NCBI RefSeq assembly: GCF_006715145.1
Contig: NZ_VFMR01000001.1
Coordinates: forward strand, 1,736,001 to 1,800,000
Direction of reading: 5' to 3'
DNA: 64,000 nucleotides
DNA from: Microbacterium sp. SLBN-146
GTDB lineage: Bacteria > Actinomycetota > Actinomycetes > Actinomycetales > Microbacteriaceae
Shown here: piece by piece, positions 53,941-64,000 of the stretch
How positions within the stretch are numbered: the first letter of the stretch is position 1
How the letters are laid out: each line of letters opens with the position of its first letter
Made by a program: the position numbers and the translations under genes
The notes under the pieces: generated by a model
Seen by the model: the letters and a program-made list of their open reading frames with translations, nothing else
Told to the model about the DNA's origin: nothing
Database searches by the model: none

Positions 53941-56900
53941 TTGACCGGAACACATCTCGCCCGTCGCGGAATCGCCGCGGCAACGCTCTCAGCGCTGGTC
54001 GCCACCGCGCTCGTCCCCGCCGTCGCGGCCTCGGCCGCCGATGAGACGATCACCACCCTGTACGACTTCGAAGACGGCACGTCCTCGCACATCCAGTGGG
54101 GTGCCGCCGGCGCCGGGGTGCAGGCCGTCGCCGATTCGGGAGTCGGCTCGTGGTCTGACTCGGTGCCCAACACGAACGTGCTGTCGTACGGCTTCGATCT
54201 CGCCGCCGAGCCCTTCTACGGCGGCATGGGATTCGAGTTCAGCGGCGCTCAGCCTGCGCAGGACTGGAGCGCCTACGACGGCCTGCAGTTCTGGATGCAC
54301 AGCGACGGCAGCGCGTCATCGATCCAGGTGGAGCTGCTCGACGCCGTCTCCGCCGATTCCACCGTCCACGATCGCTGGGATGTCGTCGTTCCGCTCGGCG
54401 CTGCCGGCTGGAACCTCGTGAAGCTGCCGTTCTCGAGTTTCGGCTATGCGACGGACTTCCAAGACGGTGGGGCGCCGCACGACGGGTCGCTCGACCTCGA
54501 CGTCGTCCGCGGACTGCTCTTCCCGGCGAACGCGGGCACGGCCGTCGTCAAGCTCGACGAGATCGCGCTCTACGCCGGTGCGGTCGTCGCCCCCTCCGTC
54601 GGCGTCACCGCGACCGCCCTCGACGTCGTCGAGGGGTCGGACGCGACGATCCCCGTCCGACTGTCGACCGCGCCGACGAGTGACGTGACCGTCGACTATG
54701 CCACCGTGGACGGAACAGCCGCGGCGGGAACCGACTACCCCGCGACGAGCGGCACTCTCACTTTCGCGGCAGGCTCGCGGGACGCGCAGATCGTCGTTCC
54801 GACCACCGCCAACGACACCGCCGAGGGCAACCGCACCTTCACGGTCTCGCTCGCGAATCCTTCCGGCGCCACGCTCGGCGCGGCGACGACGACCGTGACC
54901 ATCCGCGACGACGACTCCGCACCCGCCGGCGCACTCAGCCTGCTGACCGACCCCGTGGAGGATTTCGAGTCGGAGCTCGTGCTGGGCGATCCGGCGGCGG
55001 TGCCGCCGCTGGGGTGGTTCGCTGCGCAGGGTGCGGGGAACGTTCCGTCGTTCGAGCGGGTGGCGGATGCGTCGCGTCCGGGTGCTGCGGACGGCAATGA
55101 CGCCCTGAGCCTCGGGTTCGACACGTCGTCGTGGGCGGTCGTGATCGACACGTTCACGACCGGCGGGTCGACGTGGGATCCCCAGGATTGGTCGGCCTAC
55201 CGGGGTGTGGGGTTCTGGATGCGCGGGTCGAACTCGGGTGCGCCGATGTTCGTGGACGTGCTCGACAACCGGAACCCGGGGTCGACGGTCGATGACGCCG
55301 AGCGGATGTCGGTGCGGTTCGTCGACGACTGGACGGGCTGGCGGTTCGTCGAACTCCCCTTCGCGGACTTCACGCGCAAGAACATCGGCAACGGTGCCCC
55401 CGACGACGGGTTCACGCTGACCGAGGTGCACGGTATCGGCATCGGTGTCGAGCAGACCCCGGCTCCCGTGACGCCCGACATCCTCATCGACGACATCACG
55501 CTCGTCGGTCAGGCGGACGCCAACCGTCCGCTGACGATCAACGTCGCACGGGCGATCTTCACGGTCGACGAGGGCGATGACGCCGAAGTGCTCGTGCGGC
55601 TGACCCGCGCGTCGGACGAGGACGTCACGGTGTCCTACCGCACGGACGAAGCGGTCGACCGCACGTCGACGGAAGACCTCCCCGCGACGCCCGATGTCGA
55701 CTACGTCACGACGAGCGGTACCGTCACGATTCCCGCGGGCTCGCGAGACGCGATCATCACGGTCCCGACGATCGCCGACGGCAAGGCAGAGGTCGACGAG
55801 ACCTTCCTGGTCCGGCTGTCCGACCCCGTCGGCGCCGAGCTCAATCCGCTCGCGGTCGCCCGCGTCAGCATCCTCGACAGCGACGAGCCGGTCGCAGGCC
55901 TTCTCGACGACTTCGAGAACGGTACGGCGGGGCTCGGCCAGATCGGGGATGCCACGCTGTCGACGCGCCTCATCGCGGCATCCGATGCTGATGCCTACGA
56001 GGGTCAGGACGTCTTCGATAACGTCCTCGACATCGACGGCAACGGCGGGTACGCCCGCAGCTTCGCGCAGCCGCAGGATTGGAGCGCCCAGGAGGGCATC
56101 GGGTTCTGGTACGAGGGCGAGGGCGACGGCCGCGACGTGACACTGCGCGTGCAAGACGCGACTCCCGTCGAGGCTGCCCCCGAAGACTGGACCCTCGCGT
56201 GGTCGGACGAGTTCGACGCGCCGGCCGGGACGGCCGCCGACTCCCGCTACTGGACCTACGAGACCGGTGGATGGGGCTGGGGCAACGACGAGTTGCAGTA
56301 CTACAGCGACTCGACCGACAACGCCGCGCACGACGGCGAAGGCAACATGGTCATCACGACGCGCGCGGTCGAAGACCCCGCCGCGGCGGGCCTCGAGTGC
56401 TGGTATGGGCCGTGCGAGTACACGTCGGCGCGCCTCATCACGGAGAACAAGGTCGAAGTGCTGCACGGACGCATGGAGGCACGCGCCCAGATGCCGGCCG
56501 GTGAAGCGGGAATCTGGCCCGCGATCTGGACGCTCGGCAACGACTTCCGCGATGTCGGATGGCCGCGCACGGGTGAGATCGACATCATGGAGTTCGTCGG
56601 GAAGCTGCCCGACGAGATCTTCGGCACGATCCACGGCCCCGGGTACAGCGGCGGTCAGGCGTACGGCGACACGTACGACTTCGGCGAGAACCTCGGCGGT
56701 CAGTGGCTGACCTTCGCGGTGGAGTGGGAAGAGGGCGAGATCCGCTGGTATGTGCAGCGCGACGGCGGCGAGGAGATTCTGTACCACACCGCCACGCCCG
56801 CCGACGTCGCCCCGAGCGACTGGGTCTACGAGCATCCCTTCACTCTGCTGATGAACATGGCGGTCGGCGGCAACTTCGGTGGCCCGCTCGCCGACACCCT

Positions 56901-57450
56901 CGCCTTCCCGCAGGAGCTGAAGGTCGACTACGTCCGCGTCTACCAGGCGCCGGATGCCGTGGAGAGCTTCGAGACGACGTTCGTCGACGACGAGCCCGGA
57001 TGGCGCTTCGTGCAGCTTCCGTTCGCCGACTTCGAGCGGTCGGCGGAGCAGCCCGACGGTGCGGCTGACGACGGCTTCGGCCGCACGTCGGTGACCGGCT
57101 ACGAGGTCGAGGTGTCGGGTGCGCCGGCGACGGTCGAGTCGTTCGCCCGCTCGATCGGGATCTTCGCGGTCGCGGACGGTGCCGTGAGCCTCGACAAGGT
57201 GCAGGTGCTCGCCGACGTGACCGACCCCGGCGCGGGTGGCGGCGGCACGGGTGGCGACGGCACGGGTGGCGACGGCTCAGGCTCGGGCTCGGCGCCGGGA
57301 TCGGGCGCGGCTTCAGGATCGGGGCAGGGCGGTCTCGCCGCGACCGGCGGCGTCGACCTGACACCGTTCGCGCTGCTCGCGCTCCTGCTCATGGGTGTCG
57401 GGGTGACGTTCCTCCGGCGCAAGCGGCTCGGCGTGCGCACCGAGCGCTGA
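53941..57450 (+). CDS. Cell-wall-anchored multidomain GH16 beta-glucanase
   Basis: A 1169-residue exported enzyme. Order: signal peptide (1-36), CBM11-like domain (about 37-217), Calx-beta (218-325), second CBM11-like (335-520), second Calx-beta (525-655), then a third CBM11-like domain interrupted at about residue 746 by the GH16 catalytic domain and resumed near 1006. The catalytic motif GEIDIMEF gives Glu879, Asp881 and Glu884. A Gly/Ser linker, LAATG (1132-1136), a helix and RRKR form a sortase signal. It probably cuts beta-1,3 (or mixed) glucan at the cell surface. Start is TTG behind GAGGAAG. Confidence 0.9.
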   Translation: MTGTHLARRGIAAATLSALVATALVPAVAASAADETITTLYDFEDGTSSHIQWGAAGAGVQAVADSGVGSWSDSVPNTNVLSYGFDLAAEPFYGGMGFEFSGAQPAQDWSAYDGLQFWMHSDGSASSIQVELLDAVSADSTVHDRWDVVVPLGAAGWNLVKLPFSSFGYATDFQDGGAPHDGSLDLDVVRGLLFPANAGTAVVKLDEIALYAGAVVAPSVGVTATALDVVEGSDATIPVRLSTAPTSDVTVDYATVDGTAAAGTDYPATSGTLTFAAGSRDAQIVVPTTANDTAEGNRTFTVSLANPSGATLGAATTTVTIRDDDSAPAGALSLLTDPVEDFESELVLGDPAAVPPLGWFAAQGAGNVPSFERVADASRPGAADGNDALSLGFDTSSWAVVIDTFTTGGSTWDPQDWSAYRGVGFWMRGSNSGAPMFVDVLDNRNPGSTVDDAERMSVRFVDDWTGWRFVELPFADFTRKNIGNGAPDDGFTLTEVHGIGIGVEQTPAPVTPDILIDDITLVGQADANRPLTINVARAIFTVDEGDDAEVLVRLTRASDEDVTVSYRTDEAVDRTSTEDLPATPDVDYVTTSGTVTIPAGSRDAIITVPTIADGKAEVDETFLVRLSDPVGAELNPLAVARVSILDSDEPVAGLLDDFENGTAGLGQIGDATLSTRLIAASDADAYEGQDVFDNVLDIDGNGGYARSFAQPQDWSAQEGIGFWYEGEGDGRDVTLRVQDATPVEAAPEDWTLAWSDEFDAPAGTAADSRYWTYETGGWGWGNDELQYYSDSTDNAAHDGEGNMVITTRAVEDPAAAGLECWYGPCEYTSARLITENKVEVLHGRMEARAQMPAGEAGIWPAIWTLGNDFRDVGWPRTGEIDIMEFVGKLPDEIFGTIHGPGYSGGQAYGDTYDFGENLGGQWLTFAVEWEEGEIRWYVQRDGGEEILYHTATPADVAPSDWVYEHPFTLLMNMAVGGNFGGPLADTLAFPQELKVDYVRVYQAPDAVESFETTFVDDEPGWRFVQLPFADFERSAEQPDGAADDGFGRTSVTGYEVEVSGAPATVESFARSIGIFAVADGAVSLDKVQVLADVTDPGAGGGGTGGDGTGGDGSGSGSAPGSGAASGSGQGGLAATGGVDLTPFALLALLLMGVGVTFLRRKRLGVRTER

Positions 57451-58640: not shown

Positions 58641-60842
58641 ATGGGTACCACGCATCCCACTCGGCCCAGACGAGGAGTGTTCGACATCGACCGCGATCCG
58701 CACGTGTGGCAGGGATTCGTCGTGCGCACCGCTGCGTTTCCCATCGCCGACCTCGTCAGGGCGATCGATCAAGATCCACTCGGCGTTGACGCCCTCCTCG
58801 CTCTCGCCGAAGCGGAGCGGTTCAGGCGGGCGTGCGCGTGGCAGAACCGCAGCATCGTGACCGAGATGCTTCCCGCGCTCCATTCGGGACGAGCCACGGA
58901 CAACGCTCGTGCCCGGCGGCGACTGCGCGTCCTGGCGAGCTATCTGCAGCGCTACTACACACGCAACGAGCTGATCGGATTCTTCGGTCCCGGAGTGTGG
59001 GGAACGATGACGTCAGACGACGGCGACATGATCGCCGTCGAGTACACCGACACGATCAGGCTCGAGCCGAGCCTGGAGACGTGGGCGCTGATCGAGCTCG
59101 CGAAGGCGCTGTCGCACGGGGTTCGCCACCTCATCGCGCCGCACCGGAAGCCGGGTACGCACGTCGGACGGCGCGGCGCGGTGATCGCCGGGCGCCGAGT
59201 GGAGATGGATGCCACGCGCTTGGCGGTCCTCGGTGCCGTCGACGGGGCGCGAACGCCCGCTGATCTTGCATCCGAGCTGTCGCTGACGCAGGCGGACATC
59301 ATGGCCGCACTCGACGCGCTGTGCGAGGTGGAGGCCGTCACCCATGAGCTCGCAGTCGCTCCGGTCCTCCGCGGTGAGGCATCGCTCATCGCGCAGGTCG
59401 GGCACGACGACCCCGCGGCGCGGCGGGTGCGCGGCATCCTCGAGAGTCTCGTCGTCGCACGAGAGAGCACGCTGGAAGCGCGGACCGCAGACGAGCAGAT
59501 CGACGCGATCCGCGCGTTCGAGTCTCAGTTCGCCGAGATCGTGCGCGCGGAGTCCCCGCGTTCCGCCGATGCGAGTACGCGCAGGTTCCACCAGGACCGG
59601 CGGTCGGCGACGGTCGGCAGGACTCCACTCAGTCTCATCGGCGAGCGTCGGGCGCGCATCTCACTTCCTCAAGAGGGTGCTCGTACAGCGAACGACGTCG
59701 CGCGGGTTCTCCGGCACCCCGCCCGATGGCTCACGGCATCCGTCGGTGACGCGTTCCTCCGGGAGTTCTCCGCGGCATTCGACACGATGAGTCCCGACGG
59801 CGCAGCGATTCCCCTTCGATACCTGATCCAGACGGCCTACGACCTCAGTGCCGATCGCATGCTTCTCGAAGCGCCGCGCGCCGAACTGTTCCGGCGGTGG
59901 CAGCTCGTCCTCGCGGGTGCGGACGTCTCACACGAGGGCGAGATCGACCTGGGCGATGTCGCCCAGGCGGTCGCTGTCATCGAGGGCGTCTTCGCCTCCA
60001 AGCGCCCGATGTGGTTCTCCGGCAGGCTGCACAGTCCCGATGTCATGTGGCGTGGGGCACGGGCGTCGACCGGCGCCGTCGTCGGCGAGCTGCACCTCGC
60101 CACCGTCACGGCTGACGAGCACATCGGTGCGAGCTTCGCCCGCGCCGCGGAGCTCATCGCCGACGGATACGCGGCCCACCCCGGGCCGCACCCGCAGTTC
60201 GTCGTCCTCCACCCCACGGGACGCGACGAGACGAGTGCCTTGAGCTATCCCTCTCCACACCTCGCGCACGACCGCGCCGTCTACATATCTCTCGACGAGC
60301 CTTCTCGCGAGTTCGTTCCCACTCGCGGACGTGTCGTCAGCATCGGCGACTGCACCGTCTCGCGTGGTCCGGGGGGCGATCTGGAGATCACCGCCGGGGA
60401 TGTCGGAGCGTTCCCCGCACTCGTCGTGCTCGGTGAGTTCGTGTCCAACCTCGTCTCGAGCGCCCATTCGCTCTATCCGCGCGATGTCCCGTCGCCGAGG
60501 GTCCGCGTCGGACCGATCGTGATCCATCGCCGTTCATGGGTGCTGCCGCTCGAGGTGATCGTCGGCCTGTCGGGTGAGGAGCTGCGCGACGTCCTCGAGG
60601 AGAAGGGCGTTCCCCGTCACACCTTCTGGAGGATCGGAGCGACGCGAAAGCCTCAGTTCCTGGACTCGCGCTCGGAACTTCTGTGCGCGAGTCTGCGTGA
60701 TGCCGCGGATCGAATCTCGGGCGATACGAGCGCGGAGACCGTTTCACTCGTCGAGATGCTCCCCGCCCCGGAAGAGGCGTGGTTCCCCGACGAGGACGGA
60801 TTCGCCCTGACCTCCGAGTTCCGCATGACGTTCATCGACTGA
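58641..60842 (+). CDS. Stand-alone lantibiotic dehydratase N-terminal (glutamylation-type) domain protein
   Basis: A 733-residue protein matching only the LanB N-terminal domain. LASYLQRYYTRNELIGFFGP near residue 100 is the conserved Lant_dehydr_N signature, and the end SLVEMLPAPEEAWFPDEDGF, then TSEFRMTFID, is the normal end of that domain. The C-terminal SpaB/elimination domain is absent. LanB domains transfer glutamate from Glu-tRNA to Ser/Thr; related PEARL enzymes add amino acids to peptide C-termini. Start uncertain: ATG 58641 or GTG 58677. It converges with the ATP-grasp operon and overlaps it by 11 bases. Confidence 0.8.
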   Translation: MGTTHPTRPRRGVFDIDRDPHVWQGFVVRTAAFPIADLVRAIDQDPLGVDALLALAEAERFRRACAWQNRSIVTEMLPALHSGRATDNARARRRLRVLASYLQRYYTRNELIGFFGPGVWGTMTSDDGDMIAVEYTDTIRLEPSLETWALIELAKALSHGVRHLIAPHRKPGTHVGRRGAVIAGRRVEMDATRLAVLGAVDGARTPADLASELSLTQADIMAALDALCEVEAVTHELAVAPVLRGEASLIAQVGHDDPAARRVRGILESLVVARESTLEARTADEQIDAIRAFESQFAEIVRAESPRSADASTRRFHQDRRSATVGRTPLSLIGERRARISLPQEGARTANDVARVLRHPARWLTASVGDAFLREFSAAFDTMSPDGAAIPLRYLIQTAYDLSADRMLLEAPRAELFRRWQLVLAGADVSHEGEIDLGDVAQAVAVIEGVFASKRPMWFSGRLHSPDVMWRGARASTGAVVGELHLATVTADEHIGASFARAAELIADGYAAHPGPHPQFVVLHPTGRDETSALSYPSPHLAHDRAVYISLDEPSREFVPTRGRVVSIGDCTVSRGPGGDLEITAGDVGAFPALVVLGEFVSNLVSSAHSLYPRDVPSPRVRVGPIVIHRRSWVLPLEVIVGLSGEELRDVLEEKGVPRHTFWRIGATRKPQFLDSRSELLCASLRDAADRISGDTSAETVSLVEMLPAPEEAWFPDEDGFALTSEFRMTFID

Positions 60843-62127
60843 CTCCTTTCACCGCTGTTGCACTGTCGGCGGACAGGTGCACCGCGACGCCATCGCTGCG
60901 CAGCGCGACATCCCGCATTCCGCGAGCAGCGTTGCGCACCGCCTCGGCATAGGAGGGCCCCTCCGCCATGATCGCGACCTGGCGGTCGTCCGTGTCTTGG
61001 ATGGGTCTCATGACTCTTCTCGAGGTTGCGGCCGCATCGGCATGCACGACCCCGCGCCGGGCTCCCGCCTCCGCGAGTCCTTCGACGGAGCGCAATCGCG
61101 CGTGGCGATCTCCACCGCCGTACAGGATGGCCGCACCTCGACGGCTCGGATCCGACCAGGCGGGAGACTCCGCCAGGACCGGTCGCGGGTCGGCTCCGAT
61201 GAGCGCGAGCGCCCAGAGGTCGTACGTGTCCGGCCCGCCGCTGAGCGCCGTGAGCTCCGGGAACTCGCCGCCCAAGCGCAATTGGCATTCGAGGATCTCC
61301 ATCCCTTCGGCGCTCACCAGGAGCTCGGTGTGTGCGGGGCCGATTCGGTGGCCGACGACGGTGAGCATCGCCTCGACCTTCGCGATCGCCTCGTGCATCC
61401 TCTCCATCGGGAGCGGTGCGGGCATGCCCGAGCAGACGATGACGGGCGGATCCATCGCCATGACCTCGCACCCGGTCGCCGTGACGATGTGTTCACCGTG
61501 GACCGAAAACGTGTCGACGACCAGCACATCGCCCGCGATGAACTGCTCCACCATCACGGCGCCGGTGGGCGTGTCGGCCGTGCGAGTCGCCGCACGTCGC
61601 CAGGCGTCGTCGACATCTGATCTGCCGCATCGACGCGTGACTCCCGTGCTTCCTGCACCGCTGAGGGGCTTGACGACGACGGGCCAGCCGTGCGCATCAC
61701 CGAAGCGGCGAATGTCGTCGGGGCCGTCGACGACGGCCGCCGGGACTCGCTGGAGCCCGGCGTCGCGGAGGGTTGTCCGGAAGACGGACTTGTCGAGCGT
61801 TCTGCGGACGGACTCGGGAGTCGGCGCCGTCGTCAGCCCCCACTCCTGCGCCAGCGTCGCGGCCGCGTGAGTGAGCGGGTCCAGCGGCGAGATGACCGCG
61901 GTGAAGGGATCCTCGCGGTGAAGTCGGCGGGCCACATCGAGATAGCGCGCCTCGTTCGCCTCATCCGACAGCACGATGACGTCCTCCAACTCCTCCATGC
62001 TGCGAAAGATGCGCGCCGCCGACGGGCCGATGATCGCGCTGATGCGTGCGTCCCAGACGTGGTGCAGCACCCGCTCAATCACCCCCGTCGGCGCACCGAG
62101 TACCAGGAGATGAACCCCGCCGGTCAT
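60832..62127 (-). CDS. ATP-grasp enzyme
   Basis: A 431-residue ligase-type protein. A pre-ATP-grasp Rossmann domain (about 1-100, VHLLVLGAPTGVIERVLHH) precedes the grasp fold: WPVVVKPLSGAGSTGV carries the ATP-binding Lys and Gly loop, VMVEQFIAGDVLVVDTFS the hinge, and GMEILECQLRLGGEFPE the metal site, with Gln where Asn is usual. Such enzymes join a carboxylate to an amine through an acyl phosphate. ATG 62127 has GGAG at good spacing and an ATGA overlap with the preceding gene. Confidence 0.85.
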   Translation of the reverse strand: MTGGVHLLVLGAPTGVIERVLHHVWDARISAIIGPSAARIFRSMEELEDVIVLSDEANEARYLDVARRLHREDPFTAVISPLDPLTHAAATLAQEWGLTTAPTPESVRRTLDKSVFRTTLRDAGLQRVPAAVVDGPDDIRRFGDAHGWPVVVKPLSGAGSTGVTRRCGRSDVDDAWRRAATRTADTPTGAVMVEQFIAGDVLVVDTFSVHGEHIVTATGCEVMAMDPPVIVCSGMPAPLPMERMHEAIAKVEAMLTVVGHRIGPAHTELLVSAEGMEILECQLRLGGEFPELTALSGGPDTYDLWALALIGADPRPVLAESPAWSDPSRRGAAILYGGGDRHARLRSVEGLAEAGARRGVVHADAAATSRRVMRPIQDTDDRQVAIMAEGPSYAEAVRNAARGMRDVALRSDGVAVHLSADSATAVKGVSR

Positions 62128-63101
62128 CGCCATGACTCCGGTTCAGCCATCTGGGCGAAGTCCGCCCCTGCGAAGCGTGGAGGCAGATCGACGACCGGCA
62201 CGAGATGCTGCGCCGCTGTCGCCGCGGCGGCCACGGCGCGTGCGGAGTCGGGCGCCGCGGAGAGGATGACGGCGACGGCATCCTCAGGCCCCCGATAGCA
62301 CTGCACGGGATCCTGCGGCGAGCGCGGGCTCGTGATGTCGGTGACTCCCGCGACACCGTGAGCGGCGTCAACGTTCTCCACTCCCACCCAGCTGCCGTCC
62401 ACATCGACACCGACGTAAGCGACGGCGACCACGCCGGCGCCGGAGGTATGTGTGGGTGCCGTCTGGGCGTCCACAAGCAGGTCCGTCATCCCGCCGTAGC
62501 GCTCCGCCGCTGACACCAGAAGAGGATCGCTGGGCGTCCAGGCGCGCATGGCGCTGGCTCTCCACCCGTCGCGGTCGCGACGGAGGTCGATCGTCCCGAC
62601 GAATCCGGGAGGGAGCGTGACGTCCCCCGGCAGAGCGAGAGAGCCGTTCGGCTCGACGACCTCGCCGAGCACGGGAGCGCCGGCTTCCGCGCGCAGGAGG
62701 CGGGTGGCGGCGACCACCGTCGGCCTCCCGCTCGCCGAGACGATGATGCGCGCGCTCCGTTCGGCGCGGGAGTCGGCGGCGGGGAGGTGAGGGAGAGGGA
62801 GGATGCCGCGAGCGGCGCGGATCGCCTCGGCGACGGCGCTCAATGCGCCATCGAAGCAGGCGACGGCGTCGATGCGCTCGGGGACGAGAGCGTCGATGAG
62901 CCGGACGATGCGCTCGGCGTCGGCACCACGCGGGATCATCCCAGCGCGGTCGACCATGCTCGCGTGCGTGACGATCTGCGCAGCGTGCGCGATCAGGACC
63001 GTCGTGACGTCGGGCCGAGGATCTCCGCCCGCGTCCGGCGGAAGTGCTCCGAGGCAGAGCAGCACCGGTCGCTCGTCGACCGAAGCGGAGCGGTCAGTCA
63101 C
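62124..63101 (-). CDS. Probable degenerate ATP-grasp paralogue
   Basis: A 325-residue protein between two ATP-grasp genes, overlapping both by four bases. Its N-terminal third (VLLCLGALPPDAGGD; IVRLIDALVPERIDAVACFD) is like a pre-ATP-grasp domain, and its C-terminal third resembles the end of its neighbours. The Lys/Gly-loop and the E-x-N/Q-x-R metal motif are not found. It may be a pseudoenzyme subunit. The start GTG 63101 uses the GTGA overlap. Confidence 0.6.
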   Translation of the reverse strand: MTDRSASVDERPVLLCLGALPPDAGGDPRPDVTTVLIAHAAQIVTHASMVDRAGMIPRGADAERIVRLIDALVPERIDAVACFDGALSAVAEAIRAARGILPLPHLPAADSRAERSARIIVSASGRPTVVAATRLLRAEAGAPVLGEVVEPNGSLALPGDVTLPPGFVGTIDLRRDRDGWRASAMRAWTPSDPLLVSAAERYGGMTDLLVDAQTAPTHTSGAGVVAVAYVGVDVDGSWVGVENVDAAHGVAGVTDITSPRSPQDPVQCYRGPEDAVAVILSAAPDSARAVAAAATAAQHLVPVVDLPPRFAGADFAQMAEPESWR

Positions 63102-64000
63102 GCCGACCACCCCCCGGATGTCGCCGTCGGCTCATGAGGTGTCGGCAGACACCGCGCGGATGCGTGCGACCGAAACGCGACCCCGGCGAAGGCATCGTGG
63201 GCGCGTCTTGTCGCCTGCCGCGAGTCGGAACCCACCGCGAGCACTCCGACCGGGATGTGCAGGAGCGAGCGAACCTCCGGTGCGGAGTACGGGGGCGACG
63301 CGATCTGAGAGACGAGACCGACGCCGGCGCTGCTCTCTGCCCGATCCGCGCCGACGACGGCCACGACGACTCCCGGCTGCTGCGGCCCTGCCCAGAGCAT
63401 CGAGGCCGCCTGGGCTCGAGGGTGTGCCTGCGGTGACTCGACGTCACGTCCGCACACGTGCGCTGCCCACAGCGCATAGACGTCGATCTCCGTGACGGCC
63501 AGGGTCAACTCGGCGTAGTCGCCGCCGGGACGCAACTGGACCTCGATGATGTGCGCGTCGTCCGCGGTGACGGCGAGCTCGACGTGACTCGGTCCGTCCC
63601 GCACGTCGAGCGCGTCGAGCGCGTCGTGAGCGAGTCGGATGGCGCGATGGGTCCAGTCGGCGGGCACCGGCGGGGTCGTCGCCGTCATCACGACGACGGG
63701 AGCCTCACGGGCGAAGGACTCGAATCCCACGATCGTCGCGGTGTGCGTTCCGGCGCGCGAGAAGCTGTCGACGGTCATGATCCGCCCGGACACCTGCTGC
63801 TCGACGAGCGCCTCTCCCGAGCGTGTGTCATCCGTCACCGAAACGGCGCGCGCCCACGCCTCGCCGATCGCCTGCGGACCAACGCCCGTCGTGACGCCGA
63901 TGCTCCCGCATCCCCGCCGCGGCTTGATCACGACGGGCCAGCCATGCGTCCGCCCGAACTCGTCGATCGTCGCGAGGCTGACCGCGGAGGAAGCGGCGAC
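63098..64000 (-). CDS. ATP-grasp enzyme, 5' end outside window
   Basis: 301 codons of a gene that continues past the right edge. THGWPVVIKPRRGCGSIGVT is the nucleotide-binding Lys/Gly loop, ALVEQQVSGRIMTVDSFSRA the hinge, and DAHIIEVQLRPGGDYAEL the metal site, again with Gln for the usual Asn. It is the most upstream visible gene of the minus-strand operon and closely resembles the product of the gene at 60832-62127, so the two may have arisen by duplication. Confidence 0.82.
   Translation of the reverse strand, partial: VAASSAVSLATIDEFGRTHGWPVVIKPRRGCGSIGVTTGVGPQAIGEAWARAVSVTDDTRSGEALVEQQVSGRIMTVDSFSRAGTHTATIVGFESFAREAPVVVMTATTPPVPADWTHRAIRLAHDALDALDVRDGPSHVELAVTADDAHIIEVQLRPGGDYAELTLAVTEIDVYALWAAHVCGRDVESPQAHPRAQAASMLWAGPQQPGVVVAVVGADRAESSAGVGLVSQIASPPYSAPEVRSLLHIPVGVLAVGSDSRQATRRAHDAFAGVAFRSHASARCLPTPHEPTATSGGWSA

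Follow-up and report, generated by a model that had tools for sequence, protein, structure and literature searches.

The LanB-like gene and its surroundings

The window is a 64,000-nucleotide stretch of the complete 3.6-Mb genome of Microbacterium sp. SLBN-146 (contig NZ_VFMR01000001.1, positions 1,736,001 to 1,800,000, forward strand). Near its right end lies an intact frame of 733 codons for a LanB-like protein (58641-60842, plus strand), the main subject of this analysis; the frame is open further upstream and its start is therefore likely but not proven. The initial annotation had described this protein as a stand-alone LanB glutamylation domain next to an overlapping operon of at least three ATP-grasp genes, and had suggested that a precursor peptide might lie beyond position 64000. 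We continued the reading to genome position 1830000, giving extended coordinates as the genome position minus 1736000 and entering the operon gap coordinates by hand, and found two precursor genes, a carrier protein gene and an ABC exporter to the right of the window. The 66-bp gap for which no precursor had been recorded indeed held chance-looking frames only. The setting proved to be no small pathway of LanB and ATP-grasp enzymes but a hybrid cluster that combines polyketide synthase (PKS), nonribosomal peptide synthetase (NRPS) and class III lanthipeptide genes. Its genes are as follows (in brackets, the basis of each call).

58641-60842, plus strand: predicted PEARL-like (LanB-family) aminoacyl-tRNA-dependent ligase, 733 residues (Pfam, AlphaFold2 model, residue alignment)
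60832-62133, minus strand: ATP-grasp carboxylate-amine ligase 1, 433 residues, final gene of the PKS1 operon, of the L-amino-acid-ligase type (Pfam PF13535, LAL_C2)
62124-63110, minus strand: orphan protein, 328 residues, overlapping both ATP-grasp genes (no family match)
63098-64372 extended, minus strand: ATP-grasp carboxylate-amine ligase 2, 424 residues in the scan, crossing the right edge of the window (Pfam)
64374-66046 extended, minus strand: two ABC permeases (Pfam)
66054-67025 extended, minus strand: ABC ATPase (Pfam)
67012-67740 extended, minus strand: thioesterase (Pfam)
67739-68686 extended, minus strand: LLM oxidoreductase (Pfam)
68683-74034 extended, minus strand: PKS1, KS-AT-KR-DH-carrier (Pfam)
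74259-79622 extended, plus strand: PKS2, same domain order as PKS1 (Pfam)
79639-80289 extended, plus strand: GNAT (Pfam)
80286-82865 extended, plus strand: LanKC, class III lanthipeptide synthetase (NF038151, Pfam)
82884-82979 extended, plus strand: precursor gene 1 (reading of small frames)
83023-83121 extended, plus strand: precursor gene 2 (reading of small frames)
83206-84537 extended, plus strand: protein like a condensation (C) domain, 443 residues, no Pfam match (reading of translation)
84539-84769 extended, plus strand: carrier protein (Pfam)
to 89468 extended, start uncertain, plus strand: NRPS with two AMP-binding, one Condensation and two PP-binding domains (Pfam)
to 90138 extended, plus strand: phosphopantetheinyl transferase (PPTase; Pfam)

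The cluster spans ~31 kb and consists of two back-to-back operons, nearly gapless inside, that diverge at 74034-74259 (a 224-bp intergenic region). Exporter genes were seen in the cluster only in the left operon, and the PPTase, NRPS and C-like genes in the right one. The LanB-like gene and ATP-grasp gene 1 were found on opposite strands, convergent and with their 3' ends overlapping by 11 bp, and the LanB-like gene is not part of the ATP-grasp operon. Of the three ATP-grasp genes first listed, the outer two were recovered by Pfam and the middle one (62124-63110) gave no detectable match. Adenylation (A) domains were confirmed by A-domain searches, and the NRPS C domain reads GHHTAVDD. We noted that the stand-alone C-like protein is without the HHxxxDG motif and may be inactive or a variant.

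Fold and residue pattern of the LanB-like protein

We searched 84,980 species genomes with two peptide patterns and obtained 72 loci with relatives of the LanB-like protein, all at 30% identity or less; since the search was pattern-based, these loci are a sample of the family. The sole Pfam family detected in the window protein was the expected Lant_dehydr_N (PF04738), weakly matched at 23.2 bits and under the 28-bit cut-off, and an NCBIfam scan gave no match. The AlphaFold2 model, built on 53 sequences (its alignment drew on 50 of the 72 loci, with proteins of 700-870 residues and Microbacterium lacticum entered once), had a pLDDT of 87.4 and a pTM of 0.89. Full-length matches to the model in the PDB were LanB enzymes only, TbtB being the best and MibB and NisB also present (Z 19-22). 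Residues 23-732 aligned with TbtB 17-857 over 611 residues (Z 21.6, root-mean-square deviation 3.9), indicating that the protein stops where the LanB N-terminal part stops, as had been noted before. Glutathione synthetase was also matched structurally (Z 6-7), in line with the ATP-grasp-like site that has been published, although matches of this size would be too weak alone. Profile alignments to TbtB and GodF ended before the E-x-R motif described below, and a profile comparison of the PEARL family with an ATP-grasp set gave no match.

The glutamylation domains of TbtB, NisB and MibB thus share the overall fold, but the window protein is without a partner elimination domain and carries PEARL motifs. 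No elimination domain was found in the protein or in the cluster by Pfam scans, or in the 3.6-Mb genome by a PF14028 profile scan in which a positive-control record was matched; this bears out the observation that the domain is lacking, and no separate elimination-domain gene was found. A first genome scan for PF14028 was also empty, but its controls were unmatched and it was not relied on. We rejected a class I lantibiotic or thiopeptide cluster, since the scan with the working positive control detected no elimination domain and no cyclodehydratase was among the cluster Pfam hits.

PEARLs are described as phosphorylating a free carboxylate and then condensing it with aminoacyl-tRNA (PMC12945691, PMC11212132), and the residues for ATP binding and carboxylate activation have been named for the PEARLs BhaB7 and TglB (PMC12945691, PMC11962472). 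The window protein has the pattern R29, D467, E483-x-H485, R630, F662, K670 (F662 and K670 eight apart) and E726-x-R728, and the PEARL motifs SPD, GELH and E-x-R were all found in it. BhaB7 residues D558, E575, H577, R715, F755, K763, E813 and R815 correspond to D467, E483, H485, R630, F662, K670, E726 and R728, respectively; the BhaB7 and TglB residues were matched through pattern and spacing rather than direct alignment, which counts against the assignment, and no counterpart is given for Tyr426. D467, E483, H485, R630 and R728 were invariant in 73/73 rows of the family alignment, a K or R at 670 was likewise present in 73/73, and E726 in 71/73 (the rows being the window protein, two relatives and 70 of the 72 loci, with M. 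lacticum present twice and the short loci L104 and L108 dropped). Y105 (Y/F in 73/73) and R108 (K/R in 73/73) fit, by spacing alone, the BhaB7 residues Y205 and R208 for the tRNA 3'-CCA; in the glutamylation-only LanBs position 108 is K and position 105 is T or A. The PEARLs of ribosomally synthesised and post-translationally modified peptides (RiPPs), TglB, BhaB7 and AmmB, compared by pattern, have the same activation residues and also no elimination domain (PMC12945691, PMC11962472, PMC12550832); they extend a scaffold peptide, whereas the relatives of the window protein occur mostly in NRPS/PKS settings.

As a contrast set we used three glutamylation-only LanBs from plasmids that adjoin a PF14028 gene (L171, L177 and L179; this set stands in for TbtB, NisB and MibB), in two alignments of which L-INS-i was the more careful. 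R at 728 was absent from 3/3 of these LanBs in both alignments. D467, E483 and H485 were absent from 3/3 in the L-INS-i alignment, and the SPD and GELH motifs were likewise missing from all three in that better alignment. An earlier comparison with L171 had given Q at 485 and 728; since these letters were alignment-dependent, the test was repeated with three LanBs and two alignments, and the conclusion relies on the repeat. A fourth LanB, L178 (H or L at 728), was kept outside the count, no elimination gene being annotated in its stretch.

Several results weigh against the assignment. In the other alignment D467 was D in 3/3 glutamylation-only LanBs and E483 and H485 were partly matched, in gapped stretches. 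R29, R630, F/Y at 662, K670 and E726 also occur in the glutamylation-only LanBs (E726 in 3/3 in the careful alignment and 2/3 in the other); being common to both classes, these positions are general LanB features and do not discriminate. The window protein is the longest branch of the family tree and deviates at 11 of the 66 columns kept in >90% of rows, and may thus have changed in specificity or activity. Its position beside L050 (support 0.97) is probably long-branch attraction, and we assign it to no subgroup. On the residue pattern, the contrast LanBs and the lack of a PF14028 match in the genome, we read the window protein as a divergent PEARL-like aminoacyl-tRNA ligase, a prediction from sequence and model. 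The earlier lead towards the PEARL class and a predicted amide-forming role is well supported by residue pattern, fold and contrast LanBs, and the label 'glutamylation domain' is probably wrong.

Genomic setting of the relatives

PKS, NRPS or carrier matches were found within 10 kb of the PEARL-like gene in 65/72 relatives, with strong PKS matches in 14/72; control stretches, unmatched for PKS content or number, had PKS/NRPS matches in 0/19 and ATP-grasp matches in 0/31. The order PKS-LLM-PEARL-ABC recurred in L080, L081 and L113 (Micromonospora, Hamadaea and Asanoa), where the LLM match was weak (66-92 bits). Against PKSs that neighbour PEARL-like genes, PKS1 scored 917, 882, 867, 850, 847, 789 and 779 bits at seven loci and lower at seven others; against the best two of 395 other genomes of the phylum, re-scored in the same way, it scored 707 and 691 bits (792 and 784 on the first tool's scale). 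No PEARL-like gene was found in the stretches re-read from the five phylum genomes best for PKS1. The pools were unequal (84,980 species vs 396 genomes, with two candidates scored per phylum genome), which weakens the comparison, and we therefore treat the likeness of PKS1 as support and not proof. The genomic context of the relatives is, in our view, what speaks most strongly for an association of the PEARL-like gene with the cluster, a prediction from gene neighbourhoods.

Other observations also argue against this association. The PEARL-like gene lies outside both operons and faces a LacI gene, so its membership in the cluster rests on adjacency and on the relatives. An ATP-grasp gene was present within 10 kb in 5/72 relatives (L046, L057, L062, L065 and L097), and LanKC within 10 kb in 0/72. 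The proposed co-occurrence of LanB and ATP-grasp genes was thus seen in relatives, twice with overlapping genes, but as a minority pattern. The two overlaps (L057:9392-13353 and L097:8460-12100) lie in different parts of the family tree. No orthologous clusters were found in the relatives.

The PEARL-like gene was found in 2/366 genomes of the genus, the other being in an NRPS cluster of M. lacticum. As read from translations, the M. lacticum gene (L008/L009, G037:C8:59635-85039; also L089) belongs to a cluster of NRPS type, in which ABC exporters and an asparagine-synthetase-like gene follow further along. This cluster also encodes a UvrA-like ATPase, of a kind able to give self-resistance to DNA-binding products.

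More than one PEARL-like gene was noted at several loci. Tandem PEARL-like genes with a 4-bp overlap occur in PKS/NRPS clusters of Amycolatopsis and Labedaea (L058:7071-11743 and L092:9746-14370), where the second gene was judged from reading its start. On a Streptomyces fungicidicus plasmid (L172) two annotated PEARL-like genes surround an A domain and a carrier. A Kitasatospora plasmid (L170:610-9180) has three annotated lantibiotic dehydratase genes, all with the PEARL E-x-R motif, and an unassigned gene of 485 residues between the second and the third.

The lanthipeptide part, the ATP-grasp ligases and the proposed pathway

The LanKC matched NF038151 with 671 bits (cut-off 575) and had RamC_N, kinase and LANC_like domains. 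The two precursors, of 31-32 residues and each preceded by a strong ribosome site, end in SSVSYNCG and SSASWNCGG, that is, SSxS(Y/W)NCG(G); they are identical at 17 of 31 positions without gaps, a level matched by 0/100,000 shuffles. A LanKC with adjacent precursors containing Ser and Cys points, on sequence grounds, to a class III lanthipeptide cluster. Class III LanKC enzymes form their own dehydro residues by phosphorylation and elimination. No flavoprotein was found among the cluster Pfam hits. PF02441 was matched once in the genome, far from the cluster and in a frame of 410 codons that we read by its size as CoaBC, and LanD chemistry therefore does not appear to be available.

The lipolanthines microvionin, nocavionin, goadvionin and nocaviogua (PMC10435860, PMC10373908, PMC9505594) likewise combine a class III synthetase with fatty-acid or polyketide genes, here PKS1 and PKS2 with the GNAT as candidate acyltransferase, and the SxxSxxC spacing of nocaviogua Avi2, Avi5 and Avi8 (PMC10435860) is that of SSVSYNC and SSASWNC. 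In contrast to the lipolanthines, the present cluster has no LanD-type gene that we found, its precursors have Gly or Gly-Gly after the Cys, and it has extra PEARL-like and ATP-grasp genes. A plain lipolanthine was not adopted, LanD and the C-terminal Cys being missing. Among the open-licence papers listed, none was seen to describe a lipolanthine cluster with a PEARL or LanB; the original microvionin and goadvionin papers are outside this coverage, and the result is not proof of absence. A search for the GNAT in 396 genomes of the phylum gave its best other match in a fatty-acid-type cluster and not in a lanthipeptide cluster.

LanKC relatives occurred in 13 other genomes of 198, and 12 places in 11 genomes were examined (G025, G026 and further matches in G007 and G046 stayed outside). 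PKS/NRPS matches were found in 0/19 LanKC stretches (L022-L040; L041 was outside this test), a weak control, the stretches being from PKS/NRPS-poor genomes. Several Microbacterium loci (L022-L029, L034-L037 and L041) have class III LanKC genes mostly with a histidine-kinase-like and a response-regulator gene nearby. They often lie near ftsW/pknB-type genes and, from translations read in part, look like a recurrent ordinary class III locus. Microbacterium is also the genus of the microvionin producer.

PF13535 was matched by ATP-grasp 1 and 2 with 36.7 and 43.4 bits (cut-off 27), and LAL_C2 was above its cut-off of 29.4 in ATP-grasp 1 (34.8) and below it in ATP-grasp 2 (23.5). The two proteins are 32% identical, and K115, K155, E270, E282 and R286 are common to the seven proteins aligned. 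The best solved relative of ATP-grasp 1 was 30vh, an L-amino acid ligase; the BL00235-type L-amino-acid ligase 3vot was among the closest (E 2.6e-13). In contrast to BL00235-type ligases, two paralogous genes here flank an orphan gene inside a PKS operon. For the orphan protein the Pfam and NCBIfam scans were empty, no PDB match was significant, and neither its two neighbours nor the ATP-grasp profile built in this analysis was matched; its AlphaFold2 model (pLDDT 33) was uninformative and was not used. Of 366 genus genomes only its own has the orphan gene, and the plasmid records searched gave no match to it.

A PEARL-like enzyme in an NRPS/PKS cluster is of an already known kind: around two thousand NRPS/PKS clusters with annotated PEARL-like enzymes, those in question mostly from Actinobacteria, have been described, with SnaE as the likely founding member of the NRPS-type PEARLs (PMC11212132). 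Like the window protein, SnaE (threopeptin, Stackebrandtia nassauensis) is a stand-alone LanB-family ligase without an elimination domain in an NRPS-PKS cluster; unlike the present cluster with its LanKC and two precursors, SnaE-type clusters are reported to have no identifiable lanthipeptide precursor genes (PMC11212132). The pathway is therefore not undescribed in this respect, and what we rate as new is the union of a PEARL-like gene with a lanthipeptide synthetase and precursors, lipolanthine-like without LanD and so far in one genome. In threopeptin, the ureido-forming C domain of SnaA (EHHxxHDG) is described as creating the free carboxylate (PMC11212132). A ureido-type pathway of this kind is unsupported here: the NRPS C domain reads GHHTAVDD, so nothing points to chain reversal as the source of a free carboxylate, and EHHxxHDG was found in 1/72 relatives (L111) within the flanks examined. 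As the C domain is without this motif, the acceptor may instead be the Cys-Gly or Cys-Gly-Gly end of a precursor, a polyketide or NRPS acid after its release, or the product of an ATP-grasp ligase.

Taken as a whole, we consider it probable that the LanB-like protein is a PEARL-like ligase and not a dehydratase domain, and that it serves the 31-kb hybrid PKS/NRPS/class III pathway. The chemistry that we infer, with its order, the amino acid and substrate used and the joining of all the genes in a single pathway, would run as follows. The two PKSs and the NRPS would build an acyl chain, LanKC would cyclise one or both encoded precursors, and the GNAT may join the acyl chain to the peptide, by analogy with the lipolanthines (PMC10435860, PMC10373908, PMC9505594). 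With ATP bound at the ATP-grasp-like site of its LanB fold, the PEARL-like protein would phosphorylate a pathway intermediate at a free carboxylate. An aminoacyl-tRNA would then attack the activated carboxylate through its amino group, and once the tRNA had left, the substrate would be one amino acid longer. The two ATP-grasp ligases would form one or two further amide bonds, and the ABC transporter would export the product. A more specific version, that an NRPS/PKS-type PEARL was recruited to add a tRNA-borne amino acid to the C-terminal Gly of the LanKC-cyclised peptide in place of lipolanthine Cys decarboxylation, with the ATP-grasp ligases extending it further, is speculative and we regard it as unlikely. 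PEARL-like enzymes are common in NRPS/PKS clusters and few of their substrates are known; this cluster is a compact case, in which two short precursor peptides encoded beside the pathway are candidate acceptors open to direct synthesis and testing. If the PEARL-like enzyme does act on the lanthipeptide, the ribosomal-scaffold and NRPS/PKS sides of PEARL biology would be joined, and there would be a way of finishing a lanthipeptide C-terminus without LanD, in a product made by the ribosome, a PKS, an NRPS and an aminoacyl-tRNA ligase together. The cluster may also be a source of an acylated Microbacterium lanthipeptide.

The alternative that fares best, though we think it somewhat unlikely, is that two neighbouring pathways lie side by side, the PEARL-like gene, the ATP-grasp genes and the PKS1 operon making a small amide-rich polyketide and the PKS2-GNAT-LanKC operon a separate acylated lanthipeptide. 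The divergence of the operons at 74034-74259, the PKS-LLM-PEARL-ABC blocks of other actinomycetes that have no LanKC within 10 kb and the 0/72 count for LanKC all favour such a division, but the operons share one 224-bp intergenic region, both PKSs have the KS-AT-KR-DH-carrier order, and exporter genes were seen only on the left with the PPTase, NRPS and C-like genes on the right. We hold it improbable that the PEARL-like gene is an unconnected passenger or decaying gene, the relic of another NRPS-type pathway beside a sugar locus; its long branch, its convergent position outside both operons and its presence in only 2/366 genus genomes point that way, against which stand the intact frame with every catalytic-pattern residue kept, the 11-bp overlap with the operon end and the closeness of PKS1 to PKSs beside PEARL-like genes. 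We think it very unlikely that the protein is a true glutamylation domain that activates Ser/Thr residues for dehydration in the manner of class I lanthipeptides or thiopeptides, perhaps in aid of LanKC. The LanB fold, the weak PF04738 match and the Ser-containing precursors favour it; against it are the failure to find an elimination domain in the genome, the absence of R728 from 3/3 glutamylation-only LanBs (and of SPD and GELH in the better alignment) and a LanKC that makes its own dehydro residues.

The genes on either side of the cluster, read from translations, look unrelated to it: to the left lie a LacI regulator and polysaccharide hydrolases, to the right a sugar-enzyme gene. Further left in the window, the gene at 53941-57450 encodes a large secreted protein that has a GH16-like domain and ends, at its C-terminus, in a sorting-like tail. 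Two LacI-type regulators and an arabinofuranosidase-like gene flank it, and from the translations this looks like a polysaccharide-use locus.

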